64,000 nucleotides of DNA, taken from NCBI GenBank assembly GCA_021774795.1, contig JAJFIR010000010.1, forward strand, positions 1 through 64,000, in the 5' to 3' direction. A program made the position numbers and the translations under genes. Position 1 is the first letter of the stretch, and each line of letters begins with the position of its first letter. Source of the DNA: Emcibacteraceae bacterium. GTDB taxonomy: Bacteria > Pseudomonadota > Alphaproteobacteria > Sphingomonadales > Emcibacteraceae. Below, piece after piece: positions 858 through 48,091 of this stretch. The notes beneath the pieces are model-generated. The model was not told the origin of the DNA and ran no database searches. It saw only the letters and a program-made list of their open reading frames with translations.

Positions 858-875
858 TAGAGTTATATGTAATTT

Positions 876-919
876 AAAAACGGGTTGTCTTCCATTTACG
901 TGGAGGGCAGCTCGTTTTT
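876..919 (+). terminator. Intrinsic terminator after the aminotransferase gene
   Basis: Arms 876-893 and 902-919 pair along all 18 positions if G-U pairs are allowed, around an 8-nt loop (894-901); the right arm ends in CGTTTTT. The wobble pairs are G-U only when read as plus-strand RNA and would be A-C mismatches on the other strand, so this terminates the plus-strand aminotransferase transcript. It lies just beyond the stop of the convergent DksA-like gene. Confidence 0.85.
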
Positions 920-935
920 GTTTATTACCGAATAG

Positions 936-39810: not shown

Positions 39811-41115
39811 TTATGTCCGTATAGATTTAATAATTTCCTGCGTCATGTGGTCGACGACATAAAAATCTCCCCACATCATGAGAATTAATATAACAAGCAA
39901 TGAAGTCCGGCCAATGGTTGAATTAAGAAACGCTGTATTTAACCACGCAGCGAGAAGGAAAACCGAGGAAACGTGCCAAGTCTGAGAATAAAGATACATA
40001 TTTACCCCAAACCAGGAATATAGAATGCCGAATGTTAGTATGGAAGCCAAAGAACAGATAGTAAGATTTTTCCACAAGGCATTTTTATGATAGGCGATAT
40101 ATGCACCACCACCAAAGACAAAAACTGACCCAATTGACATCATCACTGCCAATAAATCAAACTTATTTCTGGTATAATCAAATCCCGTATTTATCGGATC
40201 GTTTCTTCCGGCTGCACCATCAATTATAATAGTGTTGGGTACCGTCGGTACAATGGTCCTGACAACCAGTTCGGGAAAATGTTGTATTTTTTCTATTTGA
40301 TCTCTGATCCCAAGCGTATAAAGCTTTATATTTTCTTCTATTGGGGCAAGGTCTTTTACTTCCCGGTTGAACCCCCGGACCTCACTTAATGAGTAAAATG
40401 TTACCAAAACAAAACCAAGAACGGCTGCTCCGATTAAAACTGACTTTCCTAAAGACTGAAATAAGTTATTACTTTTAATAAGGTTTAAAAAGCATAACGT
40501 CCATCCAAAATGGATAATGTTTGATGACGTAATGCCTACTGAGAATATTCCGGATATTATAAATCCGGTTTTGGTTATATTCTGCGGATGAACGGCTATA
40601 TAAATCGCAGTCAGACTGGACAAAGCGAACGCAAGACCGGTTATTGGATAACCACTGGGGGTTGATCCAAATATATAAGAACTAATAGAAAATATTGAAA
40701 TTCCTGTAATAATTAACGCGTTTGTTATGTTAAAATTGAGCAGACGAAAACTTAGATAGAAACAAATAGCTTTTAAGGATGTGCATATGGGAGCGATAAA
40801 AATTGAAGCCGTCTCCCGAAAGCTTTGTTGATCTTCAATAAATGTCAAAGACGATACGACCAGCGAAAGAAGGCGTAACGGAAGGGAAAAGAAATAAGGT
40901 ATTAGCGGGTGTTCAAAACTTCCCGGAGACCAACCATGAGCAAATTCTTCTTTATACTGGTTTGGGTCTGCGTCAAATACAATATTATATTGGTCAAAGA
41001 CCCCAATTGCGGACCATTTTAGGGCAAGATATGATTGCAAAATTAGAACAAAACAAAAAATACCTAAAATAGGTAATGTTTCGACGTCGAAAATCTTTTT
41101 AGTACGCCGTCTCAC
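39811..41115 (-). CDS. Multi-pass membrane protein, possibly GT-C glycosyltransferase-like
   Basis: A 434-residue protein with about ten hydrophobic helices and a short basic N-terminus. After the first helix comes a loop with FDADPNQYKEEF and PGSFEHPLIPYF; the acidic pair followed by HPL resembles the periplasmic loop of GT-C enzymes that use lipid-linked sugars, but the match is weak. It starts 2 bases after the stop of the S33 hydrolase gene and is on its transcript. No further function claimed. Confidence 0.55.
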   Translation of the reverse strand: MRRRTKKIFDVETLPILGIFCFVLILQSYLALKWSAIGVFDQYNIVFDADPNQYKEEFAHGWSPGSFEHPLIPYFFSLPLRLLSLVVSSLTFIEDQQSFRETASIFIAPICTSLKAICFYLSFRLLNFNITNALIITGISIFSISSYIFGSTPSGYPITGLAFALSSLTAIYIAVHPQNITKTGFIISGIFSVGITSSNIIHFGWTLCFLNLIKSNNLFQSLGKSVLIGAAVLGFVLVTFYSLSEVRGFNREVKDLAPIEENIKLYTLGIRDQIEKIQHFPELVVRTIVPTVPNTIIIDGAAGRNDPINTGFDYTRNKFDLLAVMMSIGSVFVFGGGAYIAYHKNALWKNLTICSLASILTFGILYSWFGVNMYLYSQTWHVSSVFLLAAWLNTAFLNSTIGRTSLLVILILMMWGDFYVVDHMTQEIIKSIRT

Positions 41116-41117
41116 CG

Positions 41118-42080
41118 TTATTTTATTTTTTCTTCAAGCCAGTCACGGATGGTTTTTATAACGAAATCATGTGCTTCTGCGGTAATAGCATGTCCGGCAT
41201 TTGGTACTATTACTGTTTTTGCATCATCGATCATGTTCGCAAATTTTTTGCAGCTTTTTGGTGCTGCTTCATCGAATTCACCGCAGATCATCAGTGCCGG
41301 AACTTTAATTGTATAAAGTTGTGGACTGATATCATAATCTTTAAGGGTGCCGTCCGCTGTAAATTCACTGGGACCCCACATAGTGCGGTACATGGTTCTG
41401 TTTCCACGTAATCCACCGTCGCGGTAACCACGATCCGGGCAGGGATCTTGCCTGCACATATGCTCATCGTAAAAGGCGTCTTCAGCGGCGCGGTATTCTG
41501 GATCATCGAATGTTCCCGCTGTTTCATGTTTTCGGATGTTATCGCGGTGTATTGCCGGAAGCTGGTCGATCCAGATATTATTATCAGCGACCCATTGTGG
41601 TGTGCTGATCAGTGGGCTTCCGAGGATTGAAGCGCGCAAGCCCGGCATATTTTTTACGGCATATTCTGCTGATAAAGTTCCTCCCCAGCTGTGGCCGGCT
41701 ATAATTACTTCTTCAAGACCGAGCGCGTCACGAATTTGGTCTATTTCATTGACAAAATGTTCGACGGTCCAGGTGGATTGATCGTTAATGTCATCGGCAA
41801 ATTTTGCGGACTTGCCGTTGCCCAACTGATCATAAAGAATAACAGGGTAGGTGTCCGACAGTTCGACATAAGGCATAAGGCCCCGGTGCGTGCCACCGGG
41901 GCCACCGTGCATGGCAATGATTGCTGGTGTTTTACCAAGGTGTTCCACCCCGTTCATACGGTACCATATTTTACCACCATCAACTTGAATATAACCTGAT
42001 TGATCAGGGTCCTGGTGGGCGAAGGATGATGACGTAAAGGCGGCAATAGAAATTAGCAGCAAAAGGCGAAGAATTTTCAT
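41118..42080 (-). CDS. Exported alpha/beta-hydrolase, proline-iminopeptidase-like (S33)
   Basis: A 320-residue serine hydrolase with a signal peptide (MKILRLLLLISIAAFTSSSFAHQ). The oxyanion-hole motif is MHGGPGG, the nucleophile elbow GHSWGG, and the likely Asp/His are in CGEFDEAAP and NAGHAI. The helical insert after GSPLISTPQWVADNNIW is typical of prolyl aminopeptidases/tripeptidases, but the ligand pocket residues cannot be judged. First gene of a two-gene unit with a membrane protein. Periplasmic. Confidence 0.88.
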   Translation of the reverse strand: MKILRLLLLISIAAFTSSSFAHQDPDQSGYIQVDGGKIWYRMNGVEHLGKTPAIIAMHGGPGGTHRGLMPYVELSDTYPVILYDQLGNGKSAKFADDINDQSTWTVEHFVNEIDQIRDALGLEEVIIAGHSWGGTLSAEYAVKNMPGLRASILGSPLISTPQWVADNNIWIDQLPAIHRDNIRKHETAGTFDDPEYRAAEDAFYDEHMCRQDPCPDRGYRDGGLRGNRTMYRTMWGPSEFTADGTLKDYDISPQLYTIKVPALMICGEFDEAAPKSCKKFANMIDDAKTVIVPNAGHAITAEAHDFVIKTIRDWLEEKIK

Positions 42081-42164
42081 GACAAACCCTTTATATTTTG
42101 GTCTAAGTATTTTATGTGCCTACTAAAGTACAAAATAGTAAGAAATGCAAGGACAGGAAATAAC

Positions 42165-42716
42165 ATGACAAGTAAATTTACTCATAGGCTAGCGCAAACC
42201 GAAGACATAGAAGCCATAAAGGAACTTATGGGTGCGGCAATATATGAACTTCAGAAAGATTTTCTCAACGAAGATCAACTGAAAGTTGCAGGACAATTTA
42301 TGGGAGTAGATACAAAGTTAATTGAAGATCAAACATATTTCCTAATCCTCCATGCTGAAGGAAAGGATGAAGAAACAATAGTCGGTTGTGGTGGTTGGGG
42401 TAAACGTAAAACCCTTTATGGCGGAAATCATACGGCAGGACGTAGCGACGAATTGCTTGATCCGAACAAAGACCGAGCGCGGATCAGGGCAATGTATTGC
42501 CATCCGGACTGGGCGAGAAAAGGAATCGGTCGATATATTATGAATATATGTGAGCAAGCGGCGAGAGATGCGGGATTTAATAAAATGGTTCTTGGATCAA
42601 CCCTGGCCGGTCAGCCCCTTTATGAAGCCTGTGGGTTTACGGTGGTATCACATGAATTTGATGAGGCACCCGGCGGCGTAAAAGTCCCTGTACTTACAAT
42701 GGAAAAAGATTTTTAG
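42165..42716 (+). CDS. GNAT-family N-acetyltransferase
   Basis: About 183 residues from the ATG at 42165, after AGGAAA; an ATG at 42114 lacks such a site. The acetyl-CoA loop WARKGIGRYIMNICEQAARDAG and the C-terminal LYEACGFTVVSHE are characteristic. A central loop (YCHPDWARK) precedes the binding site. It heads a plus-strand set: GNAT, TfoX-like, thioesterase, DUF1801, with gaps of 8, 1 and overlap of 4 bases. Substrate unknown. Confidence 0.88.
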   Translation: MTSKFTHRLAQTEDIEAIKELMGAAIYELQKDFLNEDQLKVAGQFMGVDTKLIEDQTYFLILHAEGKDEETIVGCGGWGKRKTLYGGNHTAGRSDELLDPNKDRARIRAMYCHPDWARKGIGRYIMNICEQAARDAGFNKMVLGSTLAGQPLYEACGFTVVSHEFDEAPGGVKVPVLTMEKDF

Positions 42717-42724
42717 GATTGTCC

Positions 42725-43051
42725 ATGTCGATCAGCAATGAATTTATAGAGGAAATTTTGAATAAATTGTTTCCGCTTGGAGATATTACAAAGCGCTTCA
42801 TGTTTGGTGGTGCCGGACTATTTATAGAAGAAAGAATGTTTGCAAAAATAACATCGAATAACGTGCTTTCATTTAAAGGTGACAATCAAACTGAAGAAAA
42901 ATATGCTCTTTGGGGCATGACAAAGGTGGGGAAAATGCCTTATTACGATGCTAGTCCTGAACAATTGGAAGATGCAGTGAAGTTACTTGAAGTCGGGGAA
43001 TGTGCTTTAGCGGCGGCATTTAGGCAGAATATAACGAAGAAGAACAAATGA
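42725..43051 (+). CDS. TfoX N-terminal-domain protein
   Basis: About 108 residues from the ATG at 42725, with AGGA eight bases before; a TTG at 42719 is the only earlier option. Matches the TfoX N-terminal domain: KRFMFGGAGLFIEERMFAKITSNNVLSFK ... YALWGMTKVGKMPYYDASPE. The C-terminal TfoX domain of the competence regulator is absent, as in many stand-alone proteins of unknown function. Next gene follows after one base. Confidence 0.85.
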   Translation: MSISNEFIEEILNKLFPLGDITKRFMFGGAGLFIEERMFAKITSNNVLSFKGDNQTEEKYALWGMTKVGKMPYYDASPEQLEDAVKLLEVGECALAAAFRQNITKKNK

Positions 43052-43052
43052 A

Positions 43053-43835
43053 ATGATCCACCATACTAATAGAATTATTCACTTGACGGATATTGTTTTT
43101 CCAAAAAACATTAATCATCATGAGACACTTTTTGGCGGTGCGGCGCTCTCTTATATGGATAAAGTGGCATTTATCGCAGCCACGCGGTTTGGTCGGCGTC
43201 ATTTTGTGACGGCGTCCTGTGATAATATCGATTTTGAGAAGCCGGCCTTTAAAGGCAATATCGTTGATTTTGCGGCAACCGTTGTTGAGGCGGGTAGGCG
43301 ATCTTTAAAAGTTGAAGTAATCATGCAAGCTGAAGATATGCTTACGGGTAAAAGGGCTATTTGTACGCGCGGTACATTCAGTATGGTGGCTGTGGCGGGG
43401 AAAAATGATAATAACGAAGCAGTCAAACCGCTTTGCGACCTTAAAATGTCTAAAGTATCCCATGATGATCCTGATGGGGATTTGCGCATTGTTGAACTGG
43501 TTTTTGCTGACGATACCAACCATCACGGCACCTTGTTTGGTGGTCACGGCTTATCCCTTATGGCCAAGGCGGGTTTTATTGCATCAACGCAAAGGTGCCG
43601 CGAAGTAATGGTGCTGGCATCACTGGAGCGAACCAATTTTAAAGCACCAATAGTGGTAGGTGAAATTGTTGATTTATCGGCAAAGGTTACGCGAATTGGT
43701 ACGCGGTCACTAACCGTCAATGTTAAAATGTGGGGAGAGGGCCTTTTAAGCGGTGAGAGGCAATTTTGTGCCGACAGCGATTTTATTATGGTGGCCGTTG
43801 ATAAAGACGGTAGCTCAAAAGATATTGTTAAATGA
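43053..43835 (+). CDS. Double-hotdog acyl-CoA thioesterase
   Basis: A 260-residue protein built of two tandem hotdog domains. Domain 1 (about 10-125) has NHHETLFGGAALSYMDKVAFIAATRFGRR and domain 2 (about 140-255) has NHHGTLFGGHGLSLMAKAGFIAST; both keep the catalytic-type Asn/His and the GG turn of the BFIT/ACOT-type thioesterases, which hydrolyse acyl-CoA. In single-domain relatives two subunits form this unit; here it is fused. Overlaps the following DUF1801 gene by ATGA. Confidence 0.9.
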   Translation: MIHHTNRIIHLTDIVFPKNINHHETLFGGAALSYMDKVAFIAATRFGRRHFVTASCDNIDFEKPAFKGNIVDFAATVVEAGRRSLKVEVIMQAEDMLTGKRAICTRGTFSMVAVAGKNDNNEAVKPLCDLKMSKVSHDDPDGDLRIVELVFADDTNHHGTLFGGHGLSLMAKAGFIASTQRCREVMVLASLERTNFKAPIVVGEIVDLSAKVTRIGTRSLTVNVKMWGEGLLSGERQFCADSDFIMVAVDKDGSSKDIVK

Positions 43836-44242
43836 TGAAGAAAGATACTTTTAAAAATAAAGATGTAGAAACTGTTTTTGCGACCTATCCAGAATCAGTC
43901 AGAGAAAGTTTGCTTTTTATTCGAAAATTAATTTTCGAAGAAAGTGAGAACAACAAGAATATTGGCACCGTATCGGAAAGCTTAAAATGGGGACAGCCGA
44001 GTTATGCTACGAAACCGAAAACCGGTTCACCAATCCGGTTGGGAATTGAAAAGAAAACACCAGATCAATTTGGCCTTTATGTGCATTGTGGTACGCGATT
44101 AATTGAGGATTTTAAACACATATATCCTGCCAAATTTACTTATAGCGGTAGTAGAGCCGTATTATTTAGGGTTGGAGATGATCAACCTGAGAAAGAACTT
44201 CGTCATATTATTAACATTGCGCTTACTTATCACCTAAATTAG
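43832..44242 (+). CDS. DUF1801-domain protein
   Basis: A 136-residue protein of the YdhG-like DUF1801 family (FATYPESVRESLLFIRKLIFEE ... ESLKWGQPSYATKP ... FGLYVHCGTRLIEDFKHIYP). Some relatives bind iron-sulfur-related or frataxin-like roles have been suggested, but function is unknown. Last gene of the GNAT-TfoX-thioesterase-DUF1801 run; coupled to the previous gene by a 4-base overlap. The sRNA candidate ends 2 bases beyond its stop on the other strand. Confidence 0.88.
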   Translation: MMKKDTFKNKDVETVFATYPESVRESLLFIRKLIFEESENNKNIGTVSESLKWGQPSYATKPKTGSPIRLGIEKKTPDQFGLYVHCGTRLIEDFKHIYPAKFTYSGSRAVLFRVGDDQPEKELRHIINIALTYHLN

Positions 44243-44244
44243 AG

Positions 44245-44384
44245 CAAGAAAAAAAAGGAACAGAGTTATTAAACTCTGCTCCTTTAGTATCAAAGATGTG
44301 AGTGAGGTACGGAACAGTTCAATTAATGACCACATCTCAGATTCAGTGTTTAACGGTGGGAGTGATACCGTTAATGTTATCGGT
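44245..44384 (-). ncRNA. Candidate structured small RNA of about 140 nt
   Basis: Minus-strand unit with a promoter-like pair (-35 TTGTTT at 44413-44418, 16-bp spacer, -10 TATGAT at 44391-44396), then three hairpins and a terminator. Read on the minus strand: hairpin 44350-44357/44367-44374 (8-bp, loop AUCACUCCC), hairpin 44294-44300/44331-44337 (7-bp with a long loop containing ACCUCA), then terminator 44254-44285. No start codon with an open frame of any length is seen. Loops rich in CUCC suggest pairing to ribosome-binding sites. Function and homologues unknown. Confidence 0.6.
44249..44285 (-). terminator. Intrinsic terminator of the sRNA candidate
   Basis: Arms 44254-44267 and 44272-44285 pair over 14 positions with a 4-nt loop. 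The one imperfect pair (44260/44279) is A-C on the plus strand but G-U on the minus strand, and the A8 run 44249-44256 supplies a U-tract only on the minus strand. The orientation is therefore minus, although no protein gene lies upstream on that strand. Confidence 0.8.
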
Positions 44385-44390
44385 GAGTAC

Positions 44391-44418
44391 ATCATAACAA
44401 GTAACTTTCAAAAAACAA
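44391..44418 (-). promoter_or_regulatory. Sigma70-like promoter of the sRNA candidate
   Basis: On the minus strand TTGTTT (44413-44418), 16 bases, TATGAT (44391-44396; five of six to consensus). The predicted transcription start is near 44384. Confidence 0.5.
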
Positions 44419-44526
44419 GTATAAAAATATTGTTATATTATAATGACTAAGGTTAATTCGCGGATTTGCATATATTTTAATTTTGGTGTATATTGCGATC
44501 AAGTAAGTAAAAAGGATCGCCACAGT

Positions 44527-44922
44527 ATGACGATTGATAAAAAACATAAAAGGGACATTATAAAGGCAAAAAGGTCAGCTTGCCCTGTATCTATCGGACT
44601 AGAACAGTTTGGCGACAAGTGGACTTTATTACTGATAAGGGATCTTATCTTTGGTGCTAAAAAGTTTAAAGATTTTGAAGCTGGTTCGGAAAAAATTCCA
44701 ACTAATATTCTGGCCAGCCGATTAAAAATGCTCGAACATAATGGTTTGATCGAAAAAAAAATATATCAAGAGCGGCCAAAACGTTATGAGTATAGTTTGC
44801 TTGAAAAAGGCCGAGATGTAATCCCGGTCCTGCATAGTGTGGCCAAGTGGTCAATCAAATATGATAAAGAGAGTTTTGAGCCGCCCGAAAGGTTTTGGGC
44901 AGCGGGTAATGACGATTCTTAA
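44527..44922 (+). CDS. HxlR-family transcription regulator
   Basis: About 131 residues from the ATG at 44527 (AAGGATCGCCACAGT before it); an earlier ATG at 44443 would add 28 poorly conserved residues. Winged-helix of HxlR type: CPVSIGLEQFGDKWTLLLIRDLIFGAKKFKDFEAGSEKIPTNILASRLKMLEHNGLIEKK. The single N-terminal Cys of the motif ACPV can be redox- or aldehyde-sensing in this family. Its target is not evident; the sRNA candidate lies upstream on the other strand. Confidence 0.9.
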   Translation: MTIDKKHKRDIIKAKRSACPVSIGLEQFGDKWTLLLIRDLIFGAKKFKDFEAGSEKIPTNILASRLKMLEHNGLIEKKIYQERPKRYEYSLLEKGRDVIPVLHSVAKWSIKYDKESFEPPERFWAAGNDDS

Positions 44923-44959
44923 GGCCGCAGACGTTGGTCATAAGACGAATCAAACGTAC

Positions 44960-45658
44960 CTAAAACTCCGCGCCGGTCGCATCGCATATGAATGCCATAA
45001 GGGGGCTTGCGGCATCAAATGTTTTGACGACTTCGTCTAAAAATTCCGGTTTTGTGACTAATTTCTTGTCGGTTGCGTTATGCATGGCAAAGAAGCTTTT
45101 TCTTTTTAAGTCATCGATATATTTATGATCAGCATCATAACCGCGAGGTGGGCGCTTTAACCCTTTACCACCGACCGTGCCAAAATATTTTCCGAAATTT
45201 TCGTCTTCAATTACAGATTGCCATTTTTTGGGATATGCGACGATACGGTCGCGAATTTTGGCGAGCGTATCGGATTCCGGCATCCAGATGCCACCACCAT
45301 AAAATAAATTCCCGTGTTCTAAATGAACGTAAAAACCTGGTGCGTGAGCATTTTTACCCAATTTGTGTCTAAACTGAATACCGGCGTTTTCTTTATAAGG
45401 ACGTTTATCCTTTGAAAAGCGAACGTCCCGATAAATGCGGAACATTGATCCACCGTTGGATTTTGGGATCGCTGTATAATGTGGTGAGATTTCCTTTAAC
45501 CGATCGCCCATATCGACGATAAAATCCATTATCGGATTAACGACATCGCTTTTATATCGCTCTTTATTCTCAGCGAACCATTCACGGTTATTATTCTCCT
45601 TAAGTTCGTTAAAGAATTTCCAAAAGTCGTTTGTGAAACCCTTGAAATACTGTGTCAT
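44960..45658 (-). CDS. DUF2461 family protein (TIGR02453)
   Basis: A 232-residue cytosolic protein: FTNDFWKFFNELKENNNREWFAENKERYK, then GGSMFRIYRDVRFSKDKRPYKENAGIQFRH and FYVHLEHGNLFYGGGIWMP. These blocks define DUF2461/TIGR02453, whose function is unknown. Convergent with the HxlR gene. Single-gene unit with an AT-rich 5' region. Confidence 0.92.
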   Translation of the reverse strand: MTQYFKGFTNDFWKFFNELKENNNREWFAENKERYKSDVVNPIMDFIVDMGDRLKEISPHYTAIPKSNGGSMFRIYRDVRFSKDKRPYKENAGIQFRHKLGKNAHAPGFYVHLEHGNLFYGGGIWMPESDTLAKIRDRIVAYPKKWQSVIEDENFGKYFGTVGGKGLKRPPRGYDADHKYIDDLKRKSFFAMHNATDKKLVTKPEFLDEVVKTFDAASPLMAFICDATGAEF

Positions 45659-45824
45659 TAAATTTCCCCTTAGATTATTAGCTTACCAAATTATATTTGC
45701 AACTTGCGTATTACAAGTAATAATTTGAAAATTAGAGCTTCTCCATTAAATTTTTCATAAAATGAACCAATCCCGGCTTTAATACGACTATAATCATGAA
45801 GGGCAATTTTATTGTGAAGTAGGT

Positions 45825-46397
45825 ATGACAGTTTCAAATACGGAAAAATTATATACTGAGTGGTTGGTACTGCGGTGTCAGGATCATGATAAAAATGCAT
45901 TTGTCGATCTTTATGAAGTATGGAATTCTCGTTTTCATATTCATGTATTGAAAATAAGCGACTCCACAGATCAAACGCCAGATATTTTGCAAAATGGTTG
46001 GATCGCAATTTCAAAAAACTTACACAAGATCAAAGATCCCCGCCTTTTTCCAGCTTGGGGATATAGGATTATGACCAACAAGGTCAGAGATTGGCAAAGA
46101 AAACAAATTCCTTACGACAAACGTCATTCACAAATATCAGATGATGAATTGAAAAACGTGTGTGCGGAAGAAGACGCCGGTGAAACTGATGATGAACTGA
46201 TCAAGATGGCGATTGATAAATTGAATGATCAACAGAAAGAACTGATTAAACTTTATTATTATAGGGAAATGAAAATAGGGGAAATTGCGAGTGCAATGAA
46301 TATCGCGCGAGGAACGGTAAAATCCCGTCTTTTTACGGCGCGGCAAAAGCTAAAGGAAATTATTGAAAGGATCGATGATGGTAGAAAACGAAAATGA
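45825..46397 (+). CDS. ECF-type RNA polymerase sigma factor
   Basis: A 190-residue sigma-70 family protein with region 2 (about 10-85: LYEVWNSRFHIHVLKIS ... DILQNGWIAISKNL ... AWGYRIMTNKVRDWQRK) and region 4 helix-turn-helix (about 125-180: LNDQQKELIKLYYYREMKIGEIASAMNIARGTVKSRLFTARQKL). No sigma-1.1 or region 3, so the ECF group. The ends overlap the next gene by about 20 bases. The two small membrane proteins after it are likely its regulators, though no zinc anti-sigma motif is visible. Confidence 0.9.
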   Translation: MTVSNTEKLYTEWLVLRCQDHDKNAFVDLYEVWNSRFHIHVLKISDSTDQTPDILQNGWIAISKNLHKIKDPRLFPAWGYRIMTNKVRDWQRKQIPYDKRHSQISDDELKNVCAEEDAGETDDELIKMAIDKLNDQQKELIKLYYYREMKIGEIASAMNIARGTVKSRLFTARQKLKEIIERIDDGRKRK

Positions 46398-46725
46398 CGA
46401 ATTCGAAGAAAAAGTATTAAGCCGGATTAAGGCAGATATTAATCAAAGTGAACTGGATAAAGACACGGGCGCAAGACTATTTTCTATTTTTGCGACCAAG
46501 TCATGGAAAATTTACATTTTCACATTTGTAATTCTATTTGCCATGACAGCGGTTTTTATCTGGACGACAATTGAATTTTATAACGCTGAAACAGCCGAAG
46601 ATTTGTTTTTTTGGGGGCTTCATGCATTAATTAGCCTTTTCTTCTGCGCATTTGGTGAAATATGGATATGGCTCGAGATGAACCGTGTCAGTGTGCTTAG
46701 AGATTTAAACCGGCTCAGTTTATAG
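46378..46725 (+). CDS. Small membrane protein of the DUF6768 type
   Basis: About 115 residues from the ATG at 46378 (adjacent ATG 46375; GAAAGG precedes), inside the end of the sigma-factor gene. A charged N-terminal part (NDEFEEKVLSRIKADINQSELDKDTGARLFSIFATK) is followed by two membrane helices (IYIFTFVILFAMTAVFIW and LHALISLFFCAFGEIWIW), closing with LEMNRVSVLRDL. DUF6768 proteins sit next to ECF sigma factors, which suggests an anti-sigma role; this is inference. Paralogue of the next gene. Confidence 0.8.
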   Translation: MVENENDEFEEKVLSRIKADINQSELDKDTGARLFSIFATKSWKIYIFTFVILFAMTAVFIWTTIEFYNAETAEDLFFWGLHALISLFFCAFGEIWIWLEMNRVSVLRDLNRLSL

Positions 46726-46736
46726 GAGATAAAGTT

Positions 46737-47105
46737 ATGTCTGAATCTGAAAATAGGATTTTTAAAAAAATTAAAAATGATATCGAAAAAGACGAACTCG
46801 ATAAGGATGTGAATGACCGCATGTTTTCTGCGTTTGCCACTAAATTCCGTATCGGGTATGTGGTGGTTTTTGCGGCGATATTTGTGTTGTCGGTGCTACT
46901 GATTTGGTGCGTCATTGAATTTTATAACGCTGAAAATTTATATGACAGAATTTTCTGGGGTATTCATTTCGCGGTAGTATTAACGCTGCAAGCTTTCACG
47001 AAACTATGGTTCTGGCTTGAAATGAACCGGGTAAGTGTCCTTCGCAATATTAAACGACTGGAGCTGGAAATATCGTTGGCGAAAGAGCAGACGGGGAGAT
47101 GTTAA
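46737..47105 (+). CDS. Small membrane protein of the DUF6768 type (paralogue)
   Basis: A 122-residue paralogue of the preceding gene with the same plan: charged N-terminus (IFKKIKNDIEKDELDKDVNDRMFSAFATK), two membrane helices and the ending LEMNRVSVLRNIKRLELEIS. The repeated words ELDKD, FATK, IEFYNAE and WLEMNRVSVLR show recent duplication. AGGAGAT precedes the ATG. It completes the sigma factor operon and overlaps the convergent MBL gene by 4 bases. Confidence 0.8.
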   Translation: MSESENRIFKKIKNDIEKDELDKDVNDRMFSAFATKFRIGYVVVFAAIFVLSVLLIWCVIEFYNAENLYDRIFWGIHFAVVLTLQAFTKLWFWLEMNRVSVLRNIKRLELEISLAKEQTGRC

Positions 47106-48091
47106 TTGGGCGCAGCCGCTATGCCGAAATCAAGCGGGTCTTTGACAATGAGGCTGAAATTACCGAAGTCATAACGTCGTCTTCCGCTGCCTTGCTCAAA
47201 CGGTGTTGTAGGATTAATTATCGACAGGGTAGCGGCGCGAAGTTCGTTTAAATAGGATACCGGCTGCATTGTTTCATTATGACCGGGTAAAAGAAAATCG
47301 ACTTCATCGCGAAACCGGAACATTATTTGCGCGGCCATGAAAAAGTCGGCAAAACTGGCGGTATCGCTATAGACATATATGGGGGCAGGGTAGAAAGTAT
47401 CGCCGGTCATCATCATCCTATTTGAATGGTCGACTAAAATAACGCTGTCAGGAGAATGTCCGGGAATAAACACGACCTCTATTTCCCGGTTGCCAATATC
47501 TATGATTTCGCCGTCAACTATGAACCTGTCAATTTGAAATGGTTTGCTATCAAAAAAGTCAACGGAAAACCCAACTGGAATATTCTTCCAAAAGGTGTCA
47601 GTGGTCATACTATTTACATAATCCGAATGGGGATGGCCTAACGCATTATTCGCGGTATAGGAAGTATCAAGCCCATAAATAGTATCAAATTGAAAGTTGC
47701 TTCCGACGTGATCATAGTGGCTGTGGGTGTTCATGACGATGATCGGTAAATCAGTTAGCTGATCTATTAGCGCTTTCAAATCACCAATTCCCTGAAGGGT
47801 ATCGACAAGCATTGCTTTTTCGGTGCCGATCAAAAGGTAACTTATGGCCTCCTGCCATTGATTTGGCTCATATATTGCGTATGTATTTTCGGCTATTTTG
47901 TACACTTCAAACCAATTTTGCCCCGTCTCGATCAGTTGATAATTTGACCAGGAAGTGCGTGGCAGGACGTCATACCACTTTCCTTCGTTGGTATTTTCGG
48001 AATTTTGCTCAGTTTCACCGCAAGCGGTTATTAAAACAAGACCAGCAAACATGACAATTATATTTCTTGATAAATTTAAACAACTAATCAT
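47102..48091 (-). CDS. Metallo-beta-lactamase-fold hydrolase, lipoprotein
   Basis: A 329-residue exported zinc hydrolase. The signal ends in a lipobox, VLITACGE. The MBL core motif is THSHYDHVGSN (H-x-H-x-D-H), followed by FIPGHSPDSVILVDHSNRMMMTGDTFYP and LLPGHNE. Similar proteins are glyoxalase II-like or lactonase-like. The gene starts directly after the arsC stop on the same strand (adjacent bases), so arsC-MBL is one transcript. Substrate unknown; resistance role not shown. Confidence 0.88.
   Translation of the reverse strand: MISCLNLSRNIIVMFAGLVLITACGETEQNSENTNEGKWYDVLPRTSWSNYQLIETGQNWFEVYKIAENTYAIYEPNQWQEAISYLLIGTEKAMLVDTLQGIGDLKALIDQLTDLPIIVMNTHSHYDHVGSNFQFDTIYGLDTSYTANNALGHPHSDYVNSMTTDTFWKNIPVGFSVDFFDSKPFQIDRFIVDGEIIDIGNREIEVVFIPGHSPDSVILVDHSNRMMMTGDTFYPAPIYVYSDTASFADFFMAAQIMFRFRDEVDFLLPGHNETMQPVSYLNELRAATLSIINPTTPFEQGSGRRRYDFGNFSLIVKDPLDFGIAAAPN

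Follow-up and report, generated by a model that had tools for sequence, protein, structure and literature searches.

HxlR-type regulators are common, and in the loci that we compared their genes mostly adjoin protein genes; no HxlR-controlled small RNA is described in the titles and abstract beginnings that made up our sample of the HxlR literature. The closest described systems with a small RNA are from Sinorhizobium meliloti. There AbcR1, an intergenic small RNA of ~120 nt, adjoins the redox regulator LsrB, which binds and controls its promoter (PMC8844928). The locus that we describe lies in a 64,000-nt stretch of an Emcibacteraceae contig (the window, by which we mean that whole stretch), and it resembles AbcR1-LsrB in placing a predicted small RNA beside the gene of a redox-type regulator in an alphaproteobacterium, although here both binding and control are predicted. 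LsrB is LysR-type and needed for expression, whereas the regulator in the window is HxlR-type and, judged by the position of its operator, would be a repressor. Moreover, AbcR1 is described there as conserved in alphaproteobacteria, whereas the window RNA is without relatives in the genomes searched and has no Rfam match. NfeR1, a 115-nt small RNA of S. meliloti, is said to act via anti-Shine-Dalgarno motifs (PMC8844928). It has three identical motifs, whereas the window RNA has one C-rich hairpin loop and one similar, non-identical motif in an internal loop, with a putative function.

On the protein side, other DUF24 proteins are reported to use the N-terminal cysteine as a sensor of electrophiles or oxidants, and the HxlR of Bacillus subtilis is described as a formaldehyde sensor that crosslinks Cys11 to Lys13 and is thereby activated (PMC7835342). 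The regulator in the window has both the HxlR domain and the conserved N-terminal cysteine, Cys19, which is invariant in seven aligned sequences, but it reads C-P-V at the cysteine and so has no lysine two residues on with which to match the B. subtilis crosslink and its activation. By this sequence comparison, the neighbouring HxlR regulator is probably thiol-sensing. The nearest layouts are those of divergent HxlR-enzyme pairs, in which the enzyme is of the GFA or glutathione S-transferase type. Operator, divergent layout and distance to the -10 are the same as in the window, but what stands divergently in the window is a predicted terminated RNA that lacks any ORF of at least 70 aa.

The predicted RNA occupies the gap between a DUF1801 gene, which ends at 44242, and the HxlR gene, which starts at 44527 (Table 1).

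Table 1. Features of the small RNA locus, in window coordinates.
Feature	Position	Strand	Basis or remark
Predicted small RNA, ~138 nt	about 44384-44247	minus	start inferred from -10, end from U-tract
Hairpin 1, 8 bp, loop AUCACUCCC at 44358-44366	44350..44374	minus	predicted fold
Hairpin 2, ACCUC (44304-44308) inside large internal loop	44289..44342	minus	predicted fold
Terminator: 14-bp stem 44254-44285, U8 44249-44256 (three-nt overlap with stem)	44249..44285	minus	
Extended -10, TGT-TATGAT (TGTTATGAT)	44391..44399	minus	sequence
Weak -35 TTGTTT, 16-bp spacer, within operator	44413..44418	minus	3/6 consensus positions
Predicted HxlR-type operator ACTT-N9-AAGT covering -35	44404..44420	unstranded	matrix score 20.7
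HxlR-family regulator, divergent from RNA, conserved Cys19	44527..44922	plus	Pfam PF01638, 83.9 bits; alignment
DUF2461 gene, likely also under HxlR control	44960..45658	minus	Pfam PF09365; predicted operator
Second predicted HxlR-type operator ACTTGCGTATTACAAGT, ~44 bp upstream of DUF2461 start codon	45702..45718	unstranded	matrix score 22.9

The feature exists as sequence. The two hairpins, the strong terminator, the loop motifs and their strand, all of which the earlier note had described, were found again on the minus strand. That note had also proposed a -10/-35 pair; its 16-bp spacer and its -10 are present, and the latter is better described as an extended -10, but the -35 agrees with the consensus at three of six positions. 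The minus strand thus carries a predicted promoter, recognised by its extended -10 only, and an intrinsic terminator, with no gene between them, and a stand-alone small RNA gene is likely on this anatomy. A consensus promoter scan, which needs 9 of 12 matches, did not return this promoter, and its four results in 1.2 kb equal the shuffle mean. Counting both strands, the 64 kb contain 11 instances of the pattern TGnTATRAT.

The terminator stem consists of 13 Watson-Crick pairs out of 14 and one G-U pair on the minus strand, which is A-C on the plus strand, and the U8 tract is found solely on the minus strand, both as had been claimed. Among the six terminator-like sites of the window this stem ties for second longest, and the longest stem in 20 dinucleotide shuffles had 13 pairs. 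The other longest terminator-like hairpins of the window lie at 875-920 (plus, 21 pairs) and 56892-56861 (minus, 14 pairs). At -38.8 kcal/mol, the fold of the 150-nt minus strand is below all 200 shuffles (z -5.1), and the plus strand of the same segment, at -39.6 kcal/mol, also beats its shuffles (z -3.2). Since both strands fold better than shuffles, fold energy does not decide the strand. It is the U-tract and the G-U pair that assign the strand, and to that extent the earlier view that the RNA orientation is well supported holds.

Upstream of 14 HxlR genes of the family, a recurring palindrome was first spotted by eye and then tested as a pattern, ACTT-N9-AAGT, within 260 nt upstream of the HxlR match and 30 nt into it. 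These 14 family loci were taken from 29 and are, with few exceptions, the stronger matches; one is a paralogue in the same genome. The 17-bp palindrome is present in 9 of the 14 against a shuffle mean of 0.07. A second set comprised 80 named loci of proteobacteria and other phyla, the best 80 of at least 570 confirmed stretches; 52 of them have the palindrome, against a shuffle mean of 0.57. Spacings other than N9 are almost empty. ACTT-N9-AAGT is common to the HxlR genes of several phyla and is often doubled, ~32-40 bp apart. From 82 distinct sites, none of them taken from the window, we built an operator matrix. It gives two strong sites in the window, scoring 22.9 and 20.7, and the third best in the 64 kb scores 5.8. 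The quartiles of the training scores are 20.6 and 26.7, so both sites fall in the middle half, the weaker one just inside its lower edge. The loose pattern, at 30 places genome-wide against 41 for a reversed control, is not enriched, and therefore our argument rests on the matrix score and not on the pattern.

The -35 of the RNA promoter falls within the weaker of the two sites. The earlier note had placed the promoter region correctly but missed this operator. A family operator over the RNA promoter is what would be predicted for a member of an HxlR regulon, and control by the neighbouring HxlR is the best-supported addition that sequence analysis makes to the earlier note. Counting against the neighbour as the regulator, at least three further HxlR-type genes lie elsewhere in the genome. 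Because the second strong operator is upstream of DUF2461, this gene may belong to the same HxlR regulon. No strong operator was found in the five DUF2461 regions taken from relatives, where the best score, 6.0, is upstream of HxlR in the genome called G001 below. Elsewhere in the same genome as the window, operator-like sites scoring 15.5 to 24.9 lie near predicted ORFs at seven loci, one of them adjoining another HxlR gene.

In 51 of the 61 operator loci (family loci and the best 80 of at least 570 combined), an ORF of at least 100 aa starts divergently within ~130 nt. Ten of these divergent genes, picked for their familiar-looking first residues, were assigned by Pfam to GFA (six) and glutathione S-transferase (four). 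On the 51 divergent sides, -10-like hexamers peak just past the operator, with 8 loci at position 8 and 6 at position 9, whereas positions 14-38 average 2.0; the minus-strand -10 of the window begins at position 8, the commonest one on those sides. The HxlR sides have the same peak (6 of 61 at position 8 and 11 of 61 at position 9). In 95 loci (the window, 14 family loci and the best 80 of at least 570), a terminator on the divergent strand was seen in the window and in one other, where it is the operator palindrome itself. Six other operator loci are without a divergent ORF, some of them at the end of a contig or preceded by a codirectional gene, and none of the six has a terminator on the divergent side. 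It appears, therefore, that the divergent place usually held by a protein gene in relatives is held by an RNA here.

The search for relatives of the RNA itself was negative throughout. Blastn against 98 other genomes gave short partial matches only (best E 0.0095 over 19 nt), and none was found in plasmids and phages. Rfam, including AbcR and SuhB-type families, gave no match above the gathering score in the window, and the two sub-threshold matches at 40000-48000 are not to bacterial small RNAs. A covariance model was built from the one RNA sequence, entered twice, and is hence insensitive. It had a single non-self match in 31 other family genomes, at E 0.13, which we dropped as a relative because the surrounding sequence reads like coding DNA. 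It had none at E 0.05 in 395 other genomes of the order, where stricter filters were used, and found no RNA relative in 94 HxlR loci (14 of the family and the best 80 of at least 570). The stems accordingly have no relative in the searched genomes against which covariation could be read. The earlier note had said that a lack of stem conservation in relatives would speak against its RNA; taken literally, this outcome does so.

Relatives of the DUF1801 gene are present in 4 of the 31 other family genomes, all in the same genus, and in these four the RNA segment is absent rather than decayed in place. In three, DUF1801 is directly followed by a convergent DUF2461 that is 72-78% identical to that of the window. 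The fourth (G001) shares the window's gene order, with HxlR placed between DUF1801 and DUF2461; its matched parts are 139 nt apart, and the RNA is missing there. Three stop codons are reported inside the DUF1801 match of this genome (L032, 1501-1881), and the neighbouring gene order is kept. HxlR at the locus is thus common to the window and one relative, and the RNA to none of the four. Judged by sequence, such absence in the genus would be as compatible with a recent or acquired element as with a spurious one.

Three other readings of the locus deserve to be weighed. The hairpin might be no part of a small RNA but a terminator shared by converging transcripts, of the DUF1801 operon and of leaky minus-strand transcription, with the other hairpins neutral. 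It begins 12 nt past the stop codon of DUF1801 and also folds well when read on the plus strand, and such a reading would suit the lack of RNA relatives in the genomes searched. We think it improbable, given the U8 on the minus strand only, the regulated-type promoter in register upstream, the z of -5.1 for the whole 150-nt fold, and a minus strand with no gene between promoter and terminator. The same strand might encode a small protein or hold the remnant of a divergent target gene, since a 53-aa frame (44237-44395, minus) overlaps the RNA and a divergent gene is usual at other HxlR loci. We rejected this ORF as a gene: its ATG falls within the -10, so that a transcript from that promoter would start downstream of it, and the frame has no Pfam match and no relative in the 31 other genomes of the family. 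The frame moreover reads through the terminator, and a coding function on this strand is highly improbable.

A further possibility is that a true RNA gene is expressed constitutively or under other control, and that the operator serves only hxlR autoregulation. A single operator lies between the RNA and hxlR, and it could serve hxlR itself because the plus side also has -10-like sequences, TATTGT at position 8 and TATAAT at 44439-44444, in keeping with the peak on the HxlR sides of relatives. However, this operator covers the minus-strand -35 at the commonest spacing to the -10, and divergent ORFs start near the operator in most operator loci; we consider control of hxlR only to be unlikely. 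The reading that we prefer, and hold to be reasonably probable, is a stand-alone, lineage-specific small RNA that would be repressed by HxlR, released by thiol stress and able to pair with Shine-Dalgarno regions. The earlier claim of a small RNA with its own promoter and terminator gains from the anatomy and still more from the HxlR operator on the promoter, and loses by the weak -35 and the lack of relatives.

Repression is to be expected from where the operator lies, over the promoter's -35. We suggest that HxlR most likely represses the small RNA through this operator and that an electrophile or oxidant reacting with its N-terminal cysteine would take the repressor off and turn the RNA on. 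Through the second operator, the same HxlR probably controls DUF2461. The opposite sign, activation, is possible by analogy with the formaldehyde-activated HxlR of B. subtilis, although the window protein is without the matching lysine. Once released, the RNA would present its C-rich loop AUCACUCCC for pairing with Shine-Dalgarno regions in its target mRNAs. Hfq, whose gene is present in the genome, would probably take part.

In the predicted ensemble, the 9-nt CUCCC loop of hairpin 1 is fully unpaired and ACCUC is mostly so. Of 500 shuffles, 63 form a hairpin loop containing such a motif and 1 forms two; we count one in the real RNA, as its second motif sits in a large internal loop. The anti-Shine-Dalgarno idea of the earlier note thus keeps an unpaired CUCCC loop complementary to a Shine-Dalgarno-like sequence, though one that shuffles also produce, and action by such pairing is plausible from the modelled structure. 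For targets, 12-mer complements of the two loops were sought genome-wide with one mismatch allowed. They occur at nine places per loop besides the locus, against 7 and 6 for reversed-pattern controls, which is little excess. One loop-1 complement falls at the ribosome-binding site of nuoF, and three others have a possible start codon nearby.

RNA positions 2-28 are predicted to form 23 pairs with the ribosome-binding site and start codon of nuoF. Between RNA 1-30 and nuoF -20..+12 the energy is -30.0 kcal/mol, ignoring the cost of opening hairpin 1, ~7 kcal/mol, as do all our nuoF pairing energies. This was reached by none of 19896 random windows and none of 95 ATG sites with a ribosome-binding motif, and nuoF is the best of 388 sampled gene starts (a sample that includes its own region), the next being at -23.6. 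With 100-nt stretches, 8 of 1990 random windows do as well as nuoF, and among 300 shuffled versions of its leader at least one beats it. For loop positions 15-30 alone, its energy is matched by 37 of 19896 random windows. For the part of nuoF not used in finding it, 65 of 19882 random 20-mers do as well, as do 30 of 2505 with an ATG in place, nine candidates having been examined. The nuoF leaders of nine relatives in which the RNA was not found give -16.3 to -23.8 kcal/mol. Because the target was chosen genome-wide and controls match part of its energy, nuoF is a lead and not a result. That a thiol-sensing HxlR controls an anti-Shine-Dalgarno RNA in the place of a detoxification gene, and that this RNA lowers complex I (nuoF) under electrophile stress, is a conjecture that we rate as rather doubtful.

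If the preferred reading of an HxlR-repressed small RNA is true, the locus would show a thiol-stress signal reaching many mRNAs at once, and it would show a new small RNA arising by takeover of a regulated divergent promoter. The operator matrix is a means of finding further cases.
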